NCBI GenBank assembly: GCA_016872775.1
Contig: VGZA01000006.1
Location: forward strand, 62,001-126,000
Reading direction: 5' to 3'
DNA: 64,000 bases
Source of the DNA: Planctomycetota bacterium
Lineage (GTDB): Bacteria; Planctomycetota; Planctomycetia; Pirellulales; Pirellulaceae
The notes below the pieces were generated by a model that searched no databases, had not been told where the DNA came from, and saw only the letters and a list, made by a program, of their open reading frames with translations. Numbering within the stretch: the stretch's first letter is position 1; each line of letters starts with the position of its first letter. Of the stretch, positions 21,962 to 50,827 are shown piece after piece. Position numbers and translations under genes: made by a program.

Positions 21962-24544
21962 ATGAGTGTTTCCGTAGCGCGGCCGAACCGCGATGTGGCG
22001 CCACGGTCGCTGGTTTTCAGCGTCGTTCTCGGACTTGTCTCCTCCGTCGCCGCCCAGGACCAGGCCGCTCCGACGCAAGAACAGCTCAACTTCTTCGAAA
22101 CGAAGATCCGCCCGGTGCTGGTAACTCATTGCCACGAGTGCCATTCGTCGGAATCTAAAATCGTGCAAGGCGGGTTGCGCGTCGATTCGCGCGATGGATT
22201 ACTCCAGGGCGGCGACAACGGTCCGGCAATTGTCTCCGGGCAGCCCGAGCAGAGTTTACTGATCAAGGCGCTGCGACATGACGGAATTGAGATGCCACCG
22301 AAGGGCAAACTGCCGGCCTCGGTGATTCGGGACTTTGAAACCTGGATCCTGATGGGAGCCGCTGATCCGCGAGTCGCCAAAGGGCCGGTCGGAGTGAGCG
22401 CGGTCGATCTGGAGGAAGGCCGAAAGCACTGGTCGTTTCAGCCGGTCCGCGATCCGCCGATACCGGCGGTGCATGACGCGTCCTGGCCCGTCGATCCGCT
22501 GGACCATTTCGTGCTGGCGCGGCTGGAACAGGCCGGGCTGCGACCGGTCGCCGACGCCGATCGGTACACTTGGCTGCGGCGAGTCAGTCTCGATCTGACG
22601 GGCCTGCCGCCGACACCCGGCGAGATCGAAACGTTCGTTCGCGACAACTCACCGCATGCCTGCGAGATCGTTGTCGATCGGCTGTTGCGGTCGCGAGCGT
22701 TCGGCGAACGCTGGGCGCGGCATTGGCTCGACCTGACCGGCTATGCCGACATGATGGGCACGTCGAACAGTGTTTTCGCCGAGCACGCCTGGCGCTATCG
22801 CGACTATCTGATCGAGGCTTTTCAAAATGACAAACCGTTCGATCGCTTCGTGCGCGAACAGATCGCGGGCGATCTGCTTCCTGCTGCCTCTCCGCAGGAG
22901 CGCGCCGAGAACATCACGGCAACCGGCTTCTTGATGGTGGGGGATGTCGAGATCGTCGAACCCGACAAAGCAAAATTAGAAGCCGATCACGTCGACACGC
23001 AGGTGATCAAAATCGGCACGGCGTTTCTCGGTATGACCCTCGGTTGCGCGCGGTGCCACGATCACAAGTTTGATCCGATCGCGCTGCCCGACTACTACGG
23101 CATCGCGGGGATGCTGCGCAGTTCGCCGGCAACCCACAAGATTCCGTTTGGCGTCTGGAGCAAGCTGAACTCGACCGAGTTGCCGGAGACGCCGGAACAA
23201 AAGGCCGCACGACAGAAGCTGGAAGCAGAGCATGCGGAGAAGCTCGCGGCGATGAAAGGCGAGCAAATAAAGCTGGAAACTGAAAAGAAGACCGTGGACG
23301 AGCAACTTGCGGCTGTCGGAGCCTCGCTCGATGGCCAAGTTGCTCCGAAACTCGGCGGGGAGTCGCGGAGCGACTCCCCTACAGAGAAGACGTCGCTCAC
23401 CAAACGCCGCGATGAGTTGGCCGAGCAACTCAAGAAACTCGCACCGCGCATTCAGCACGCGGAGTTCTTCGCGTCGAAAGTTCCCCATGCGTTCGCGATG
23501 TGCGACGGGGCACAGCCGACGGATATGCCAATCTACATTCGCGGCAACCCGTATTCGCCCGGCGACGTCGTTCCGCGCGGGACGATCCGCGTGGCCTCAT
23601 GGGACGCATTCCCGCCGATCCCCGCCGGCCAAAGCGGCCGGTTGCAACTCGCCGACTGGCTGGCCGACCGACACAATCCGCTCACACCGCGCGTCACCGT
23701 CAATCGGATCTGGCAGAAGCTGTTTGGCGAAGGGCTCGTCCGTACCGTCGACTACTTCGGCACCCGCGGCGAAACGCCGTCCCACCCGGAACTGCTCGAT
23801 CATCTCGCGACACGCTTCCTACAGAATGGCTGGTCGCAAAAGCAGTTGATTCGCGCCATCGTCCTCAGCAGGGCGTATCGCCTGAGCAGCACGAATGACA
23901 ACGCGGCGAATAAGGTCGATCCGGATAACCGCCTGCTGTGGCGGATGAATCGCCAGCGGCTCGATGCCGAAGCACTGCGTGACCAATTGCTCGCCGTCAG
24001 CGGCGAACTCAAGCCGACTAACGGCGGGCCTGGGCTGGTGCTCGAGGAACCCGAAAACTGCGGCGAACTGCGGCAATCGGGCGTGAACCCGCCCAACTAT
24101 ACGCATCGCAAACCGCGCACCGGCGAAGAGTTTGTGCGAACGATCTACCTGCCGGTAATGCGAACCAGCACCGCCACGCATGACAATCTGCGTTCATTCT
24201 TCGATTTCGTGAATCCCGCCCAGATCGCCGGCCAGCGCAACCAGACCGTGGTCCCGACCCAGTCGCTGTTCGTGATGAATAATGAACTGTTCCGCAAACG
24301 GGCCAAGACGCTTGCCGATCAACTGATCACCGATTCCCCGCAGGTCGACGCGAGACTGAACCAGCTCTGGCTGCGAGCCTTCAGCCGTCCGATCACCACC
24401 GCCGAACGGGACGCCGCCTTGACCTTCCTTGCAGAACTTGAAGCATCGCTCGATTCCCAGGATGCTTCCACACGTGAGTCGCTCCACTGGCAGGAACTCT
24501 GCCACTCCCTGCTGGCGTCGAACGAGTTTCTGTTCCGAATCTGA
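21962..24544 (+). CDS. PSCyt1-PSCyt2-PSD1 cytochrome-like protein
   Basis: 860 residues. AAGGAG 9 bases upstream supports the start. Leader APRSLVFSVVLGLVSSVAAQ. PSCyt1 has CHECHSS (about 57) and GGLRVDSRDGLLQGGDNGP. PSCyt2 has AFGERWARHWLDLTGYADM and CARCHDHKFDPI (about 362). A coiled coil at about 407-500 (AARQKLEAEHAEKLAAMKGE) is interrupted by a short low-complexity stretch KLGGESRSDSPTEK, encoded by a palindromic repeat at 23357-23382. PSD1 spans about 560-860 (NPLTPRVTVNRIWQKLFGEG, FFDFVNPAQIAGQRNQTVV). It is exported and predicted to carry c-type heme. The DUF1501 partner starts 27 bases downstream. The substrate is unknown. Confidence 0.95.
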   Translation: MSVSVARPNRDVAPRSLVFSVVLGLVSSVAAQDQAAPTQEQLNFFETKIRPVLVTHCHECHSSESKIVQGGLRVDSRDGLLQGGDNGPAIVSGQPEQSLLIKALRHDGIEMPPKGKLPASVIRDFETWILMGAADPRVAKGPVGVSAVDLEEGRKHWSFQPVRDPPIPAVHDASWPVDPLDHFVLARLEQAGLRPVADADRYTWLRRVSLDLTGLPPTPGEIETFVRDNSPHACEIVVDRLLRSRAFGERWARHWLDLTGYADMMGTSNSVFAEHAWRYRDYLIEAFQNDKPFDRFVREQIAGDLLPAASPQERAENITATGFLMVGDVEIVEPDKAKLEADHVDTQVIKIGTAFLGMTLGCARCHDHKFDPIALPDYYGIAGMLRSSPATHKIPFGVWSKLNSTELPETPEQKAARQKLEAEHAEKLAAMKGEQIKLETEKKTVDEQLAAVGASLDGQVAPKLGGESRSDSPTEKTSLTKRRDELAEQLKKLAPRIQHAEFFASKVPHAFAMCDGAQPTDMPIYIRGNPYSPGDVVPRGTIRVASWDAFPPIPAGQSGRLQLADWLADRHNPLTPRVTVNRIWQKLFGEGLVRTVDYFGTRGETPSHPELLDHLATRFLQNGWSQKQLIRAIVLSRAYRLSSTNDNAANKVDPDNRLLWRMNRQRLDAEALRDQLLAVSGELKPTNGGPGLVLEEPENCGELRQSGVNPPNYTHRKPRTGEEFVRTIYLPVMRTSTATHDNLRSFFDFVNPAQIAGQRNQTVVPTQSLFVMNNELFRKRAKTLADQLITDSPQVDARLNQLWLRAFSRPITTAERDAALTFLAELEASLDSQDASTRESLHWQELCHSLLASNEFLFRI
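23357..23382. repeat. GGA-triloop palindrome inserted in frame in PSD1
   Basis: GGGGAGTCGC and GCGACTCCCC form a perfect 10-base stem around GGA and are followed by TAC, giving the CTAC end. It is read in frame as part of GGESRSDSPT inside the coiled-coil linker of the host protein. The same design (arm ending GC, GGA loop, arm starting GC, CTAC end) is seen at 26120-26145 and 50765-50793. Confidence 0.75.
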
Positions 24545-24571: not shown

Positions 24572-25975
24572 ATGAACCAGTTTCGTACAATCAGCCGCCG
24601 TCGGATGTTGCAGACAACGGCTTGTGGCTTCGGCGGGTTGGCGCTCGCAGACCTGGTTTCCGCCGCCAACGGTCCCCGGGCTGATGGAAGACCAGACATG
24701 GTCCCCAGAGTCAAACGGGTTATTTTTCTGTTCATGGCTGGAGGACCTTCGCAGCACGACCTGTTTCAGGAAAAGAAGTTCATCACCGATCGACACGGAC
24801 AGAAGATCGACTCGCCGTTGCGCAAGGAAGTGCTCCAGGTCGGAACGGAACAGTATCTTGCGCTGGGGACAGTCGCTCCAATTCGGCCGCGTGGTGAGTC
24901 TGGGATGATGATCTCCGACCTGCTGCCGCATCTTGCCAAAGTCGCGGATGACATCTGCCTGTTGCGAGGCATGAACACGGACAACCCGCAGCATGCCAGT
25001 GCCGTCAACCAGTTTCACACCGGCGTGTTCACCGAAGTGCGTCCCTCGATGGGAGCTTGGATCAGTTACGGGTTGGGGACGGAAAACCGAAACCTGCCAG
25101 GCTTCGTCAGCATTCACGCTCCCGGCGTGCGAACGTACGGGTCGGGATTTCTCCCCGCCGAGCATCAGGGTACGCCGCTGACCGTGCCACTGAACGACAA
25201 GACTTTGCCGATCGAAAATCTGCGGAACGTGTCGAGCAGCGATGCGATTCAGCAACGACGGATGGGACTGACAAAACGATTGAACCAGCGGCTGATCGAA
25301 GACCTGCGAGGCGACGCGAACATGGAGGGAATGATCCAGAACATGGAACTCGCCTTCCGCATGCAGACGACGACGCCCCAACTGGTTGATCTCTCAAACG
25401 AGACGCAAGCGGCGCTCGATCTGTATGGGATCGGCAGCGGCAAAGAGAGCGACAAGAACGGTCGAGCCTGTCTCTTGGCCCGCAAATTGAGCGAGTCTGG
25501 TGTGCGGTTCGTGCAGGTCACGATGGATGGTTGGGACCATCATGGCGACATTCGTACGCTGCTGCCGAAGCTCTGTCAGCAGACCGATCAACCGGTCGTG
25601 GGACTGCTGCAGGATTTGAAACAGCGCGGTCTGCTCGACGACACACTGGTGCTCTGGAGCGGCGAGTTCGGTCGCACGCCATGGAGCCAGGACGTGACCG
25701 GCACCGCGCCGTTCGACAAGCACGGCCGCGAACATCAGCCGGAGAGTTTTTGCGCCTGGATGGCCGGCGGAGGCGTGAAAGGCGGCCTGACTTGGGGCGA
25801 AACCGACGAGATGGGTTACCGCGTGGTCGAGGGAAAGGTTCACATCCACGACTTGCATGCAACCATGTTGCACCTGCTTGGCATCGACCACACCCGACTC
25901 ACCTGGAACCAGGTCGGCCGCGACTTCCGCTTGACCGACGTCCACGGCACGGTAGTAAACGAGATCCTGGCGTGA
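24572..25975 (+). CDS. DUF1501 protein, Tat-exported, partner of PSD1 at 21962
   Basis: 467 residues. AAAGGGG precedes the ATG by 6 bases. The leader SRRRMLQTTACGFGGLAL is twin-arginine-like. FLFMAGGPSQHDLFQEKKF opens the domain. Metal-site candidates are WDHH (about 321), GEFGRTPWSQ (about 364) and GREHQPESF (about 386), where the usual HHP is HQP. The tail DFRLTDVHGTVVNEILA matches its PSD1-linked paralogues. It is the second gene of a tight pair (27-base gap) and is followed by a palindromic repeat before the CocE-like hydrolase gene. The exact reaction is unknown; an alkaline-phosphatase-superfamily fold is expected from the family. Confidence 0.94.
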   Translation: MNQFRTISRRRMLQTTACGFGGLALADLVSAANGPRADGRPDMVPRVKRVIFLFMAGGPSQHDLFQEKKFITDRHGQKIDSPLRKEVLQVGTEQYLALGTVAPIRPRGESGMMISDLLPHLAKVADDICLLRGMNTDNPQHASAVNQFHTGVFTEVRPSMGAWISYGLGTENRNLPGFVSIHAPGVRTYGSGFLPAEHQGTPLTVPLNDKTLPIENLRNVSSSDAIQQRRMGLTKRLNQRLIEDLRGDANMEGMIQNMELAFRMQTTTPQLVDLSNETQAALDLYGIGSGKESDKNGRACLLARKLSESGVRFVQVTMDGWDHHGDIRTLLPKLCQQTDQPVVGLLQDLKQRGLLDDTLVLWSGEFGRTPWSQDVTGTAPFDKHGREHQPESFCAWMAGGGVKGGLTWGETDEMGYRVVEGKVHIHDLHATMLHLLGIDHTRLTWNQVGRDFRLTDVHGTVVNEILA

Positions 25976-25982
25976 GAATCCT

Positions 25983-26008
25983 GTAGCCAAGTTGCTCCGC
26001 AACTCGAC
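25983..26008. repeat. TCC-triloop palindrome after DUF1501 stop
   Basis: GTAGCC opens the element and AGTTGC/GCAACT pair around TCC, followed by CGAC. It is an imperfect member of the GTAGCCGAGTTGC family, 7 bases after the DUF1501 stop. Confidence 0.6.
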
Positions 26009-26094
26009 CGAAACGCAAAAGCGCTTCATTCGCAACGACACACCCAACCATCGCTTCCGCAAACACCCAATGAAAACCGTCTTCTCAAACGATA

Positions 26095-26145
26095 TAGCCG
26101 AGCTGCCCCGCAGCTCAACGTCGAGTTGCGGAGCAACTCGACTAC
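26095..26145. repeat. Double palindrome just upstream of hydrolase start
   Basis: TAGCC is followed by GAGCTGC/GCAGCTC around CCC (26100-26116), then GTCGAGTTGC/GCAACTCGAC around GGA (26120-26142), then TAC. It ends 2 bases before the preferred ATG at 26148. It would sit in the 5' leader of the transcript and could hide the ribosome site, which is inference. Confidence 0.7.
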
Positions 26146-26147
26146 GA

Positions 26148-27842
26148 ATGATCTTTTTCGTTTGCCTGCTGGCTTTTGCCTCAGCGGCGCGCGCCGAAAT
26201 CACTACGTCGACGGTCGTGGTGTCGATGCGCGACGGCGTCAAACTGGTGACGGACGTCTATCGTGATGACGCCTCGGCGCAGGCTCCCGTAGTCCTGATG
26301 CGCACGCCCTACGATCGCACGAGGCAAAAGAGTATCGGGGAGGGCTGGGCAAAAGCGGGCTACGTCTTTGTCGCGCAGGATTGTCGTGGCACACGGGCTT
26401 CCGAAGGCGTGCTTGCGCCGTACAACAACGAAGGTCAGGACGGCTACGACACGATCGAGTGGCTGATGCGGCAACCGTGGTGCAACGGGCGAGTTGGCAT
26501 GGTCGGCGGTTCGTACGTCGGCGCGGTGCAGTGGCAGGCGGCGGTCGAGAACCCACCGGGCCTGGTTGTGATCGCTCCCCAGGCCACATGGAGCAGCTTC
26601 TATCGGAACTTGTACCTCGGGGGCGCGGTCCGACTATCGTTGATCTCGAGTTGGATCGCGGGCAACACGCCGAAGCCCGAAGGCGCGACCCAAGCCAACA
26701 TGAGTAGCGCCTTGATGCGCCTGCCGCTCAGCGACGTCGACGAGGCGATCGGCTGGCCGATGCCCTGGCTGGACGCGTATCTCACGCACCCCGAGCCGAA
26801 CGGCTTCTGGACGCGACTCGATCTCACGGCGAGGTTACCGGAATTGCAACTCCCGGTGCTGCACGTCGTCGGCTATTACGATTTCTTCTCGCGCGAGTCG
26901 GTCGACAACTTCATGGTCATGCAACGTCAAGCGCGAGACCCATCGACGCGGAAACAACAGCGACTCCTGCTGGGCCCCTGGGACCATGGCACGATCGGGA
27001 AGTCGCAAGTCGCCGAAGTCGATTTTGGACCGGCGGCCGCTCTCGACGTTGCGGCAATCCAGCTCGATTGGTTCGATCGCCATTTGAAGCGGGACGCCAC
27101 GGCGATCGCCGGGTCGTTTTCTCCGGTGAGTTACTTTTCGATGGGCGACAACGTCTGGCTCGATGCCCAGACCTGGCCTCCCGAGGGATTCAAAGCGACG
27201 TCGTACTATCTCCACTCGGACGGCAACGCCACCACGCGAAATGGAACTGGCCGGTTATCTCGCGACGCGCCGACCAGTGCACAACCGAGCGACGCGTTTC
27301 GCGCTGATCCGTCACAACCCGTCCCTGCCTGCCCGGTCACGGACGCGCGGCCGATCAGTGCCGCCGTTTGGGGCCCCGTCGATCAATCAATCTTGGAGGA
27401 CCGCGACGACGTGCTTGTATACAGTACGTCTCCGGTCGCGGAGCCAATGACCTTCGCCGGTAACCTCGAAGCCCGTCTGTTCGTCAGCACCGACACGCCC
27501 GACGCGGACTGGGTCGTCAAGGTCGTCGATGTTCGCCCCGACGGCGTCGCGATCAATCTCGCCACGGGTATCGTGCGCGGCCGGTATCGCAACTCGCTGC
27601 TCAAGCCTGAGTTGATGAAAGCGGGAGAAGTTTACGAAATCACCGTCGATCTTGGTCCCTGTGCCGCGACGATCGCAAAAGGCCATCGGCTTCGCGTCGA
27701 TATCTGCGGTTCGCTCTTTCCGCTCTTTGACCGCAACCCGAACACCGCCATCGGCATTTTTGGCGACAAGACTGCGGTGGCGACCGAACATGTTCACCAC
27801 CGGCCGGGAGCCTTGTCGCGGCTCATCTTGCCGGTGAAATGA
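26148..27842 (+). CDS. CocE/NonD family serine hydrolase, exported
   Basis: ATG 26148 gives 564 residues with a clean Sec leader, MIFFVCLLAFASAARA. Starts further upstream would run through the double palindromic repeat and bury the leader. The N-terminal alpha/beta-hydrolase has MRDGVKLVTDVYRDD, TPYDRTRQ, the nucleophile elbow GGSYVGAVQW, a probable acid in VVGYYDFFSRES and the catalytic histidine in LGPWDHGTIG. The C-terminal part (about 370-564) with ARLFVSTDTPDADWVVKVVD and LRVDICGSLFPLFDRN is the jelly-roll PepX C-terminal domain. The family cleaves esters, amides and acyl-peptides (cocaine esterase, glutaryl acylases, X-Pro dipeptidyl-peptidase). The substrate cannot be read from the sequence. 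It follows a PSD1/DUF1501 pair on the same strand. Confidence 0.92.
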   Translation: MIFFVCLLAFASAARAEITTSTVVVSMRDGVKLVTDVYRDDASAQAPVVLMRTPYDRTRQKSIGEGWAKAGYVFVAQDCRGTRASEGVLAPYNNEGQDGYDTIEWLMRQPWCNGRVGMVGGSYVGAVQWQAAVENPPGLVVIAPQATWSSFYRNLYLGGAVRLSLISSWIAGNTPKPEGATQANMSSALMRLPLSDVDEAIGWPMPWLDAYLTHPEPNGFWTRLDLTARLPELQLPVLHVVGYYDFFSRESVDNFMVMQRQARDPSTRKQQRLLLGPWDHGTIGKSQVAEVDFGPAAALDVAAIQLDWFDRHLKRDATAIAGSFSPVSYFSMGDNVWLDAQTWPPEGFKATSYYLHSDGNATTRNGTGRLSRDAPTSAQPSDAFRADPSQPVPACPVTDARPISAAVWGPVDQSILEDRDDVLVYSTSPVAEPMTFAGNLEARLFVSTDTPDADWVVKVVDVRPDGVAINLATGIVRGRYRNSLLKPELMKAGEVYEITVDLGPCAATIAKGHRLRVDICGSLFPLFDRNPNTAIGIFGDKTAVATEHVHHRPGALSRLILPVK

Positions 27843-38247: not shown

Positions 38248-38334
38248 TCAATTTGGAGCCGGGTCGTCCCGCGACACGGCGAATTCATCTCACACGTTGG
38301 ACCGCGCAGCGATCCAGGACCATGGAGTCACGTC

Positions 38335-46506: not shown

Positions 46507-47913
46507 ATGAACTATCGCGTATTGCCAGCTGCTCCCTCGCGGCGAACGTTCCTGCGTTCCGCTGCCGCGGGATCAGTGCTTTTTCCCGGCATCGTACAGC
46601 AACTGCTCGCCGATGGGGGCGACCCGCTTGCTCCGCGCGAACCGCACTTTCCAGCGAAGGCCAGGAATGTCATTTTCCTATTTATGACAGGAGGAGTTTC
46701 GCATGTCGACACATTTGATCCGAAGCCGGAGCTGACGAAACAACATGGTGCGGAGATCAAGGCCGATCATCCGGAAATCAAGAACCGGCCCGGCTATGAA
46801 CGGATTTTCCTGAAGCGCCCGCAATGGGAATTCAAACCACACGGCCAGTGTGGGACTGAAGTCAGTACGCTCTTTCCTCATGTCGCTGAACGTGTCGATG
46901 ACATCGCGTTGATCCGTTCGATGCATACGTCCCATTCGAATCACTACAACGCCACACTCGGCATGCACACCGGTTCGTTCGCGTTCTCGCGGCCAAGCAT
47001 CGGCTCGTGGGTCACTTACGGGTTGGGTACGCTCAATCGTAACCTGCCCGGGTTCGTGGTCATCGCGCCCGCGCAAACCTATGCCGGTACGCAAGTTTAC
47101 GCTAATGACTTCCTTCCCGGCGCCTACCAGGGAACGCTGGTCGTACCTGGTGCCGAGCCGATTGCCAATGTTCGCCCGCGCGTGCCAACCGATCGTCAAC
47201 AACTGGAGTTGGCCGCCCTGCAGGAATTGAACACTGAACATCTCGCAGCGCGATCGAACGATCCCCAACTGGCCGCTCGATTGCGGACCTTCGAAACAGC
47301 GTTCGGAATGCAGATGGCGGTGCCCGATGCGTTTGACTTCACAAAAGAAACCGCCGCGACGCTGGAAAGTTATGGTCTGAGTCTTGACCAGAAATCCGGC
47401 TTCGGCTGGCAATGCCTGGCGGCCCGACGACTCATCGAACGCGGAGTACGATTCGTTGAGTTGATCGATGTCGGATCATCCAACAACTGGGATGCGCACG
47501 GCGACATGATGACACACGTGCCCCTGGCCAAGAATGTCGACCAGCCGATCGCGGCCTTGATACAGGATTTGAAGCTTCGCGGAATGTTCGACGAGACACT
47601 GATCGTATGGACGACGGAGTTCGGGCGCACACCGTTCAACAACACGGCGGACGCGAAAGGTCGCGAACATCATCCCTGGGCGTTCAGTTCGTGGCTAGCC
47701 GGAGCTGGCGTGAAGCGCGGCTATGTGCATGGAACGACCGACGAGATTGGGCTTCGGGCGGCTGACAATCCGGTTCACGTGCGCGACTTCCACGCGACGA
47801 TCCTGCGACTGATGGGTTTCGATCACGAACGACTCACCTACCGCCACGCCGGCCTCGATTACCGCCTCACCGGCGTTGAGGGGGCGAAGGTGGTGAAGGA
47901 GATTCTGGCATGA
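46507..47913 (+). CDS. DUF1501 protein, Tat-exported, partner of PSD1 at 43567
   Basis: 468 residues. It starts 6 bases after the PSD1 stop. Leader SRRTFLRSAAAGSVLFPG, twin-arginine-like. Domain entry FLFMTGGVSHVDTFDPKPEL. Metal-site candidates are WDAH (about 328), TEFGRTPFNN (about 371) and GREHHPWAF (about 385). The tail DYRLTGVEGAKVVKEILA differs slightly from the DVHG form. The stop overlaps the next PSD1 start by four bases (ATGA), so this gene joins two consecutive PSD1/DUF1501 pairs into one translated string. The function is unknown. Confidence 0.94.
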   Translation: MNYRVLPAAPSRRTFLRSAAAGSVLFPGIVQQLLADGGDPLAPREPHFPAKARNVIFLFMTGGVSHVDTFDPKPELTKQHGAEIKADHPEIKNRPGYERIFLKRPQWEFKPHGQCGTEVSTLFPHVAERVDDIALIRSMHTSHSNHYNATLGMHTGSFAFSRPSIGSWVTYGLGTLNRNLPGFVVIAPAQTYAGTQVYANDFLPGAYQGTLVVPGAEPIANVRPRVPTDRQQLELAALQELNTEHLAARSNDPQLAARLRTFETAFGMQMAVPDAFDFTKETAATLESYGLSLDQKSGFGWQCLAARRLIERGVRFVELIDVGSSNNWDAHGDMMTHVPLAKNVDQPIAALIQDLKLRGMFDETLIVWTTEFGRTPFNNTADAKGREHHPWAFSSWLAGAGVKRGYVHGTTDEIGLRAADNPVHVRDFHATILRLMGFDHERLTYRHAGLDYRLTGVEGAKVVKEILA

Positions 47914-50759
47914 GTTCCACGAAGAATGACGGCCGATTGTGCGGAGTCGTTCCGCGACTCCGCGCCGGGTTGCCAGGCAACCCGGCAACAATCAGCAGCC
48001 CGGTCACGGTCATCGTTCTCAGCGTACTGAGCCTGCTTGGACCCGGCGCCGCAACACAGGCCGATGAACCACGCGCTGCGACCGCGGAGCAGATCAGCTT
48101 CTTCGAGTCAAAGATTCGGCCGCTTTTTGCCAAACATTGTTACGAGTGTCACGGTGAGGCCGCCGCCGAAGGCAAATTGCGGCTCGATACGAAGAATGGC
48201 TGGGAACGAGGCGGCGAACGTGGGCCGACGATCGTGCCGGGGGATCCTTCGTCAAGCCTGCTCATGCGGGCTGTCTCCTATCGCGACGACAAACTCAAGA
48301 TGCCTCCGCCGGATACCGGCGACAAACTGAACGATGCCGAAATCGAGGACTTGCGGAGCTGGATTCGAAACGGCGCCCACGATCCGCGCAGCGGTACAAA
48401 GGTCGTCACCGATCTGGAGAAGGCCGCCCGCGAGCACTGGGCGTTTCAGCCGATCGTCGCTCCGCATGTCGCCGACAATTCTCATCCGATCGATTTTCTC
48501 ATCGAACGCAAACATCGCGAGCAGAATATCGTCGCGACCGAGCCGGCCGATGCCCGGACACTTGTTCGACGCATGAGCTTCGATTTGCTGGGCCTGCCAC
48601 CGAGCGCGGAGGAGATCAGCGAGTTTGAAAAGGAATTCGCTGCGGAATCGCTCCGCAATTCCGCGTCGAGTCAGGGAGTGACTCGGCCGCAGAACGAAAC
48701 GCATCCGCCGCCTTCATCACCACAGACCATCAAGCGGCTGATCGACCGTCTCTTGCAGAGCCCGCATTATGGCGAACGCTGGGGGCGCCACTGGCTCGAT
48801 GTCGCCCGGTATTCGGATGCGAAGGATGGCGTGCTGATGTATGGCGATGGTCGCATTCGGCCCTTTGCCTACACCTACCGCGACTACGTCATTCGGGCTT
48901 TCAATGACGACAAACCTTTTGATCAGTTCGTGCGCGAGCAGCTCGCCGCCGACCAGTTGAATCTTCCCGCGGATTCACCCGACTTTGCGGCGATGGGATT
49001 GCTGACACTCGGTCGGATGTTCGACAGCAATCGACACGACGTGATCGATGACCAGATCGATGTGATCGGTCGCGGCTTCCTGGGACTCTCGGTGGCCTGC
49101 GCACGATGCCACGATCACAAGTTCGATCCGGTTCCGACGGCCGATTATTACTCGCTGTATGGTGTCTTCGCCAGTTGCATCGAGCCGTACGACCGTCCTC
49201 GAATCGGACCGGTGACCGAGGCAGGTCAGGCGTTCGAACAGGAATTCGCCGCGAAACTGAAGGAAATTGAAGGCCAGCAGGCCAACCATTACACGGAAAC
49301 ACTGAAGATCGCCAGGGAGCGAACGCCTGACTACCTTATCCATGTTGCGACTACGCAGCCGGACGTTTCCGAAACAGCGATCTTCTTCCTGTCATTGACG
49401 CCTGAGCAGCTGCGACCGCAGATCACCAAGCGCTGGCGGCAACTGATCGCGCGGCGGGCATTTACGGACGATCCGATCTTCGGTCCCTGGTCCGATCTGC
49501 AACACGATCTGGCTCTCAAGCCGGAAGCATGGAAGGCCCGCGGCATCGATTCACGAATCATCGATGGACTTGTGGCTGCCCAGCCGACTTCGATGGCCGA
49601 CGTCGCTCGAATCTACGGCAACGTGATCCGGGACGCGTGGACGACAGGCGGCGGCGGCGAGAGCGATCCGCTCGTCGCGCTGTTGGTGGCGCGGGACGGA
49701 CCGGTCTGGTTTCCCATTCGAGATGTGGCCTTTTACTTATCAAGGCAACCGGGGGACGCTTATCGTGGTCTGTTAGGGCAACTGGATGCGATCGCCGTGA
49801 AGCACAAGGACGCCGCTTCGCGGGCGATGACGGTTCACGATGCCGAAGTGCTGTGCGATCCCGTGATCTATCAACGCGGGGATCCCAGCGCGCGCGGCAC
49901 ACCGGTACCGCGCCGATTCCTGGAGATCCTGTCGCCCGAAAATCGCCCGGCATTTTCCCAAGGCGGAGGGAGGCTCGAACTCGCCAATGCGATCGCCTCG
50001 CCAGCCAATCCGCTCACGGCCCGCGTCTGGGTCAATCGGGTCTGGATGCATCACTTCGGCGATTCGCTGCTGGAGAATCCCAGCGATTTCGGCCTGCAGG
50101 CAAAGCGACCCGTACAGCACGATCTGTTGGATTTCCTCGCCGACTATTTCATCAAGCATGGCTGGCGAACGAAACCACTCCACGAGCTGATTCTCTCCTC
50201 GCGTGCCTATCAGCGCTCGTCGCAGTTTCCCGAGACCGAAGCGATGGCACAGCAGCGTCAACGCGATCCGTCCAACTCGCTGTTGTGGAGATCCAATCGT
50301 CGGCGACTTGACTTTGAGCAGATGCGGGACACGATGTTGACCGTGGCCGGCGAATTGGATGCAACCATGTTTGGACGACCCGCGGTCGTTACGGACGATG
50401 CGAATCGCCGCCGCACGGTTTACGCCTTCGTCGAACGACAGAACATCCCGGCCATGGTACAGACCTTCGACTTTGCCAACGCCGACACATCCACTCCCCG
50501 CCGAAGCATGACCACGGTTCCGCAGCAGGCGCTGTTCGCGTTGAATTCGACGTTTATGCTGGCCCGTTCCGATGCGCTGGCGAAGCGCGTTGCCGACACC
50601 GAGCCAGCGCGACGCGTACCACGCCTGTATGCCGTCGCGCTGGGCCGCGAGCCGACTCCTGCCGAGGTGGAACTGTGCGAGAGTTTCCTGGCGGCCGGGA
50701 CGCTTGAGCAACTTGCCCAAGTGTTGTTAATGAGCAATGAACTGATGTTTGTGGATTGA
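47910..50759 (+). CDS. PSCyt1-PSCyt2-PSD1 cytochrome-like protein with repeat-encoded inserts
   Basis: 949 residues; start overlaps the DUF1501 stop (ATGA). The first 30 residues (GRLCGVVPRLRAGLPGNPAT) are encoded by two adjacent palindromes and precede a normal leader core, VTVIVLSVLSLLGPGAA. No start codon lies between the palindromes and the leader core, which supports the long form. PSCyt1 has CYECHGE (about 77). PSCyt2 (DUF1549) is interrupted at about 244-270 by a stretch rich in S, N, Q and P that is encoded by another palindrome pair; its paralogues lack it. CARCHDHKFDPV is at about 397 and PSD1 at about 684-949 (NPLTARVWVNRVWMHHFGDS). The DUF1501 partner follows 68 bases downstream. 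Predicted exported heme protein; the added segments probably form surface loops. Confidence 0.93.
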   Translation: MSSTKNDGRLCGVVPRLRAGLPGNPATISSPVTVIVLSVLSLLGPGAATQADEPRAATAEQISFFESKIRPLFAKHCYECHGEAAAEGKLRLDTKNGWERGGERGPTIVPGDPSSSLLMRAVSYRDDKLKMPPPDTGDKLNDAEIEDLRSWIRNGAHDPRSGTKVVTDLEKAAREHWAFQPIVAPHVADNSHPIDFLIERKHREQNIVATEPADARTLVRRMSFDLLGLPPSAEEISEFEKEFAAESLRNSASSQGVTRPQNETHPPPSSPQTIKRLIDRLLQSPHYGERWGRHWLDVARYSDAKDGVLMYGDGRIRPFAYTYRDYVIRAFNDDKPFDQFVREQLAADQLNLPADSPDFAAMGLLTLGRMFDSNRHDVIDDQIDVIGRGFLGLSVACARCHDHKFDPVPTADYYSLYGVFASCIEPYDRPRIGPVTEAGQAFEQEFAAKLKEIEGQQANHYTETLKIARERTPDYLIHVATTQPDVSETAIFFLSLTPEQLRPQITKRWRQLIARRAFTDDPIFGPWSDLQHDLALKPEAWKARGIDSRIIDGLVAAQPTSMADVARIYGNVIRDAWTTGGGGESDPLVALLVARDGPVWFPIRDVAFYLSRQPGDAYRGLLGQLDAIAVKHKDAASRAMTVHDAEVLCDPVIYQRGDPSARGTPVPRRFLEILSPENRPAFSQGGGRLELANAIASPANPLTARVWVNRVWMHHFGDSLLENPSDFGLQAKRPVQHDLLDFLADYFIKHGWRTKPLHELILSSRAYQRSSQFPETEAMAQQRQRDPSNSLLWRSNRRRLDFEQMRDTMLTVAGELDATMFGRPAVVTDDANRRRTVYAFVERQNIPAMVQTFDFANADTSTPRRSMTTVPQQALFALNSTFMLARSDALAKRVADTEPARRVPRLYAVALGREPTPAEVELCESFLAAGTLEQLAQVLLMSNELMFVD
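47941..47986. repeat. Two adjacent palindromes within PSD1 5' coding region
   Basis: GCGGAGTCGT and GCGACTCCGC pair around TCC (47941-47963; one G-T pair). GCCGGGTTGCC and GGCAACCCGGC follow at once, separated by a single A (47964-47986). Both are translated as the N-terminal extension of the PSD1 protein. Strong hairpins so close to a start codon could also affect translation. Confidence 0.75.
48642..48685. repeat. Two adjacent palindromes inserted in frame in DUF1549 domain
   Basis: GCGGAATCGC and GCAATTCCGC pair around TCC with one mismatch (48642-48664). CGAGTCA and TGACTCG pair around GGGAG (48667-48685). The encoded residues AESLRNSASSQGVTRPQNET have no counterpart in the other PSCyt2 domains of this window, where the flanking helix and the RLL-SPHYGERWGRHW block are nearly contiguous. 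Confidence 0.75.
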
Positions 50760-50764
50760 GTCCC

Positions 50765-50793
50765 GTAGCCGAGCTGCGGAGCAACTCGGCTAC
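50765..50793. repeat. GGA-triloop palindrome, most complete copy
   Basis: GTAGCCGAGCTGC and GCAACTCGGCTAC pair around GGA, 13 bases each with a single mismatch. It lies 5 bases after the PSD1 stop and before the DUF1501 start at 50828. This copy shows the full GTAG to CTAC ends of the family. Confidence 0.8.
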
Positions 50794-50827
50794 AAAGAAC
50801 CTGAGATGAACCAAGGGGGCACCTGCC

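Follow-up and report, generated by a model that had tools for sequence, protein, structure and literature searches.

The window, a stretch of 64,000 bases, comes from a 5.85 Mb planctomycete genome (a draft of 141 contigs, completeness listed as 99.91). In it a DUF1501 gene with its stop at 25975 is followed by a CocE-like gene, which carries the Pfam domains Peptidase_S15 and PepX_C and starts with the ATG at 26148. In the gap between them we found one single palindrome at 25982–26009 and one doublet at 26093–26146. An earlier note on this DNA had described the palindrome AGTTGC-TCC-GCAACT after the DUF1501 stop and a double palindrome just before the CocE-like ATG. Both were located, the former at 25990–26004, 14 bases past the stop, and the latter with its CTAC foot ending at 26145. 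The GC-GGA-GC core, thought to be invariant, turned out to vary, since the left half of the doublet carries a CCC/GGG loop instead. The arms differ among copies as described, but the GAGTCGC arm that had been placed in 25983–26145 belongs to the copy at 23330–23383. The palindromes were absent from the orthologous DUF1501–CocE junctions at three other MAG loci (L119, L121 and L150).

Table 1. REP units and elements located in the window, numbered from its first base.
Feature	Position	Strand	Basis
Single REP unit: GTAG foot, stem CCAAGTTGC / GCAACTCGA (2 basal mismatches), TCC loop	25982..26009	+	Covariance model C6:87982-88009, E 1.5e-8
Doublet, left REP unit: ATAG foot, GAGCTGC stem, CCC loop	26093..26120	+	Covariance model C6:88093-88120, E 1.5e-6
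Doublet, right REP unit: GTAG foot, GAGTTGC stem, TCC loop	26119..26146	-	Covariance model C6:88119-88146, E 2.3e-9
REP doublet, in frame inside DUF1553 gene 21962-24544	23330..23383		Covariance model; linker variable among homologues
Diverged REP doublet just past DUF1501 stop (47913), within 5' end of ORF 47910-50759 as called	47938..47990		Covariance model
REP doublet, in frame inside DUF1553 gene 47910-50759	48638..48691		Covariance model; fills 26-residue insertion relative to paralogue
Single double-foot REP (GTAG ... CTAC), between DUF1553 and DUF1501 genes	50764..50794		Covariance model
Probable decayed REP unit after DUF1553 stop (weak)	38254..38281	+	Covariance model 21.3 bits, E 0.034
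REP of another sub-type: GTAG foot, GACGGGTC stem, TCC loop	1418..1440	-	

In most copies the REP unit is built on one plan, with a 9-bp stem that stands on a GTRG foot and closes in a TCC loop. The doublets consist of two such units facing one another with the feet outward, and their consensus reads T-GTGG-CCGAGTCGC-TCC-GCGACTCGG-CG-TCGAGTTGC-GGA-GCAACTCGA-CCAC-A. In alignment A2, with its 19 units, GTAG or GTGG stood at the 5' foot of 14 and variants at that of the others. This alignment was drawn from 28 units; L022–L025, which have neither palindrome nor foot, the ambiguous L008 and L021, and L003, L004, L019 and L020, which were already represented, were dropped, and the left unit of C12 was included in addition. 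Alignment A1 was made without the C53 doublet, which has a 16-base insert. Three doublets (C7, C56 and C68) share an identical core of 52 bases, and the C61 element is double-foot-like, with CTGG and CCAC. Several elements (C7, C12, C53, C56 and C61) have, about 15–20 bases upstream, part of the left stem repeated in direct orientation (GCCGAGTCGC or a variant), which may be the remnant of a unit or a favoured target.

To compare the motif with chance had been proposed in the earlier note, and an excess was found at both stringencies. Allowing at most one mismatch, CGAGTYGCTCCGCRACTCG matched 17 times in its own genome and the reversed-pattern control not at all; at 3 mismatches the excess was weaker (59 against 32 in the control). 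Among 39 other genomes of different genera, four contained a single match each at ≤1 mismatch and the rest none. A covariance model trained on 19 units detected 26 units genome-wide at E ≤ 0.002, most of them its own training set, and these make up 16 elements, of which 10 are doublets and 6 singles. A short palindrome with a conserved fold in several copies above chance, as expected of the GTAG superfamily, is thus present. The 10 doublets are moreover pairs of close inverted REPs that could form one hairpin, the arrangement by which REPINs are defined. When 3-base-loop perfect hairpins were collected from 800 kb sampled from the same genome, TCC/GGA was the commonest loop (14 of 133). Other families of TCC-loop hairpins with different stems, GTAG-GACGGACA-TCC and CTGGGGCT-TCC, also occur in this genome (sample loci L252, L263, L265, L274, L275, L279, L282, L283 and L286).

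The stems were found to co-vary, with a score of 0.305 compared with 0.168 ± 0.022 in shuffles, none of 500 shuffles being as high. For the individual hairpins of the doublets the score was 0.344 against 0.147 (0 of 500 shuffles), and 11 pairs had changed in both partners where shuffles gave 3.5, while the long hairpin spanning the doublet gave 0.134 against 0.137, no excess; in these two tests one copy of the C56/C68 form was counted as a distinct row, as rows C7 and L015_C7L have T for C in an unpaired flank column. We therefore rejected the long hairpin as the structure of the doublet. The covariation reported earlier was thus confirmed, but the step from there to selection on the fold was not, because covariation alone is no proof of selection. 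It could also arise from mutational correction of imperfect palindromes or from separate amplification of sub-types. In the first case intrastrand template switching would repair the imperfect palindrome, so that mutation alone would suffice to change the two arms in step; it fits this explanation that the arms agree within a unit but the units of one doublet differ from each other. Template switching would not account for the number of copies, the conservation of foot and loop or the linkage to RAYT genes in relatives; as the source of the covariation without selection we consider it rather unlikely, and it can coexist with a REP/RAYT origin.

The fold had been proposed to act either as RNA or as a single-stranded DNA substrate of a RAYT-type transposase. 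Hairpins that work in the mRNA, whether to terminate or stabilise it or to mark it for processing, would agree with the several intergenic copies just past stop codons. However, two copies sit inside coding sequence, and among the non-Watson-Crick cells in A2, 7 fitted a wobble on one strand and 8 on the other, thus giving no sign of selection at the RNA level. Taking as a terminator any GC hairpin with a T run immediately behind it on the coding strand, we obtained one site, which was antisense, where 0.8 were expected by chance, and no Rfam match at gathering score was detected in 23000–51000 of the window. Taken together, the lack of wobble strand bias, of terminator excess and of Rfam matches favours a single-stranded DNA substrate. 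We rejected the RNA element or terminator, a role that now appears highly improbable.

Six of the 16 elements lie in one 27.5-kb part of the window. Calculated once the cluster had been noticed, the binomial chance of this is 8e-11 for a single given stretch and rises to about 2e-8 when 213 stretches are allowed for. All six are in or near DUF1501/DUF1553 genes. A strong association with these genes was rejected, since for the ten elements outside the window a partial list of domain matches gave a domain at ≤250 bases from C53 and C28 only, and C61 is upstream of a DUF1553 gene; the association is suggestive only. Judged from open frames only, the elements outside the window appear mostly intergenic, several of them between convergent genes. 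These domains have expanded very strongly in the genome, which, window included, contains at least 127 matches to DUF1501 and at least 96 to PSD1 (DUF1553). The linker that holds the doublet at 23330–23383 varies in length and sequence among DUF1553 homologues; in none of these was the REP plan found at the matching linker, and a hairpin of ≥7 bp was present in 4 of 47 linkers.

A RAYT (Y1) transposase gene elsewhere in the genome, which the earlier note had suggested looking for, was not found in this assembly by PF01797, by NF047646 or by profiles A3 and A4, both made from RAYT alignments, the search with A4 reaching E values up to 10. The best NF047646 candidate was rejected as a RAYT at E 0.317. 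GTAG-superfamily REPs often, if not always, have a cognate RAYT in the same genome, and here the four profile searches were empty. PF01797 matched 29 of 40 genomes and A3 50 of 98, the own genome being part of either total, thus the searches work elsewhere. Conceivably the system is active, the RAYT being present in the real genome and lost in assembly gaps while the REPs still move. The identical core of C7, C56 and C68 suggests recent spread, and in a draft of so many contigs REP-flanked genes may break assemblies. Against this stand the four empty searches, though the A3 type was found in about half of the genomes searched, and the listed completeness; we regard an active system as unlikely.

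Relatives provided the link to the transposase. Model R1 matched 17 of 296 genomes of the order at E ≤ 1e-4, the own genome included, and PF01797 was present in all ten that were tested of the 16 others. In genome G134 a 218-residue RAYT (L201:3094-3750) is flanked by GTGGGCGAGTCTC-TCC-GAGACTCGC units, and in G058 (L220) and G316 (L225) the RAYT is flanked by the REP GTAGCCGAGTCTC-TCC-GAGACTCGG, one compensated base pair from that of the own genome. At these three loci a cognate RAYT is thus flanked by the matching REP type, and the RAYTs beside the relatives' REPs carry NHVH, WQ and YIxxNP. TCC(N) hairpins were detected at 21 of 30 A3-like RAYT loci (97 of 115 strong hairpins) compared with 4 of 38 other Y1 transposase loci (4 of 82 hairpins), counts that ignore relatedness and come from sets that may share loci. 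Nine of the 30 A3-like loci were without a TCC(N) hairpin of ≥8 bp, and one of these (L245) has other loops. The near-identical REPs beside RAYT genes support a single-stranded DNA substrate of RAYT type, as the earlier note had offered, for the REP family and not for a transposase in this genome. When model R1 was run on 38 RAYT loci the best matches, 21 and 18.5 bits, were both from L197, and on reading neither was a clear member. Some A3-like loci (L240, L237 and L242) have GTCG and not GTRG before the TCC-loop hairpins, so that foot and loop may evolve separately. At L243 (G257:C7) the flanks of an A3-like RAYT hold TCC-loop hairpins in tandem arrays, with a spacing of exactly 50 or of 35–39 bases.

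We conclude, with a probability of about 85%, that the palindromes are non-autonomous GTAG-superfamily REPs, most of them in REPIN-like head-to-head dimers, that would have been moved by a RAYT of a planctomycetal subfamily and are now most likely orphaned remnants in this genome. Each unit would fold into its own hairpin while the DNA is single-stranded, and the RAYT (a HUH tyrosine transposase) would recognise the TCC loop and the GTRG foot, cut beside the foot and move the dimer. Recognition of loop and foot would leave the stems free to drift as long as they stay paired. Against the REP reading, the copy number is low for REPs, no RAYT was found in the own assembly, and among the A3-like loci some lack the TCC(N) hairpin or have GTCG feet. 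A further-reaching idea, which we hold tentatively and at somewhat less than even odds, is that the planctomycetal RAYT branch reads the TCC loop and tolerates almost any paired stem. The loop would then serve as the mark of identity by which many REP families of unrelated appearance belong to a single type of enzyme. This genome, having lost the enzyme, would retain several such families, clustered around DUF1501/DUF1553 genes and here and there translated in frame as protein linkers. The means by which a RAYT distinguishes its own REP from foreign ones are understood only in part, and a constant TCC loop with differing stems and one RAYT subfamily alongside makes loop recognition testable outside the Proteobacteria. 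An orphan REP population would also be a natural experiment on the fate of REPs after loss of the enzyme.

In-frame palindromes inside genes are also known from the Rickettsial palindromic elements, which end in CGTC and are not known to have a transposase. The elements described here resemble them in the in-frame copies within genes, and differ by their GTRG feet and RAYT-linked cousins. REPs in Planctomycetes are already known: PMC3733652 describes 24 families of the GTAG superfamily, some in R. baltica and O. terrae, with GTGG variants for O. terrae GTAG-20 and head-to-head dimers. With these families our elements share the GTRG foot, the short GC-rich hairpin, the 3-base loop, the dimers and occasional in-gene copies. 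They differ in that no REPtron was found in the own genome, and the subfamily with its TCC loop, compared with the text of PMC3733652 only, is unmatched to a published consensus. A REPIN, as defined in PMC6006769, is a REP doublet forming a hairpin, with two inverted REPs a few bases apart; our doublets have this arrangement, but only their single hairpins co-vary, and the copy number is low. The single at 50764–50794, with GTAG and CTAC ends as expected from the central deletion of a dimer, and the similar C61 element resemble the double-foot REPs that the same source ties to RAYT subclass 2.4; the RAYTs here are characterised by their three motifs. In PMC8266576, certain loop bases are essential for cleavage of perfect-palindrome REPs by TnpAREP, in agreement with stems that vary freely around a conserved TCC loop. 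In a literature search covering titles and abstract openings we found no earlier report of a TCC-loop planctomycetal REP/RAYT pairing. What is new here is this subfamily of sequences, the finding that it is orphaned and clustered, and the association of its loop with a type of transposase.
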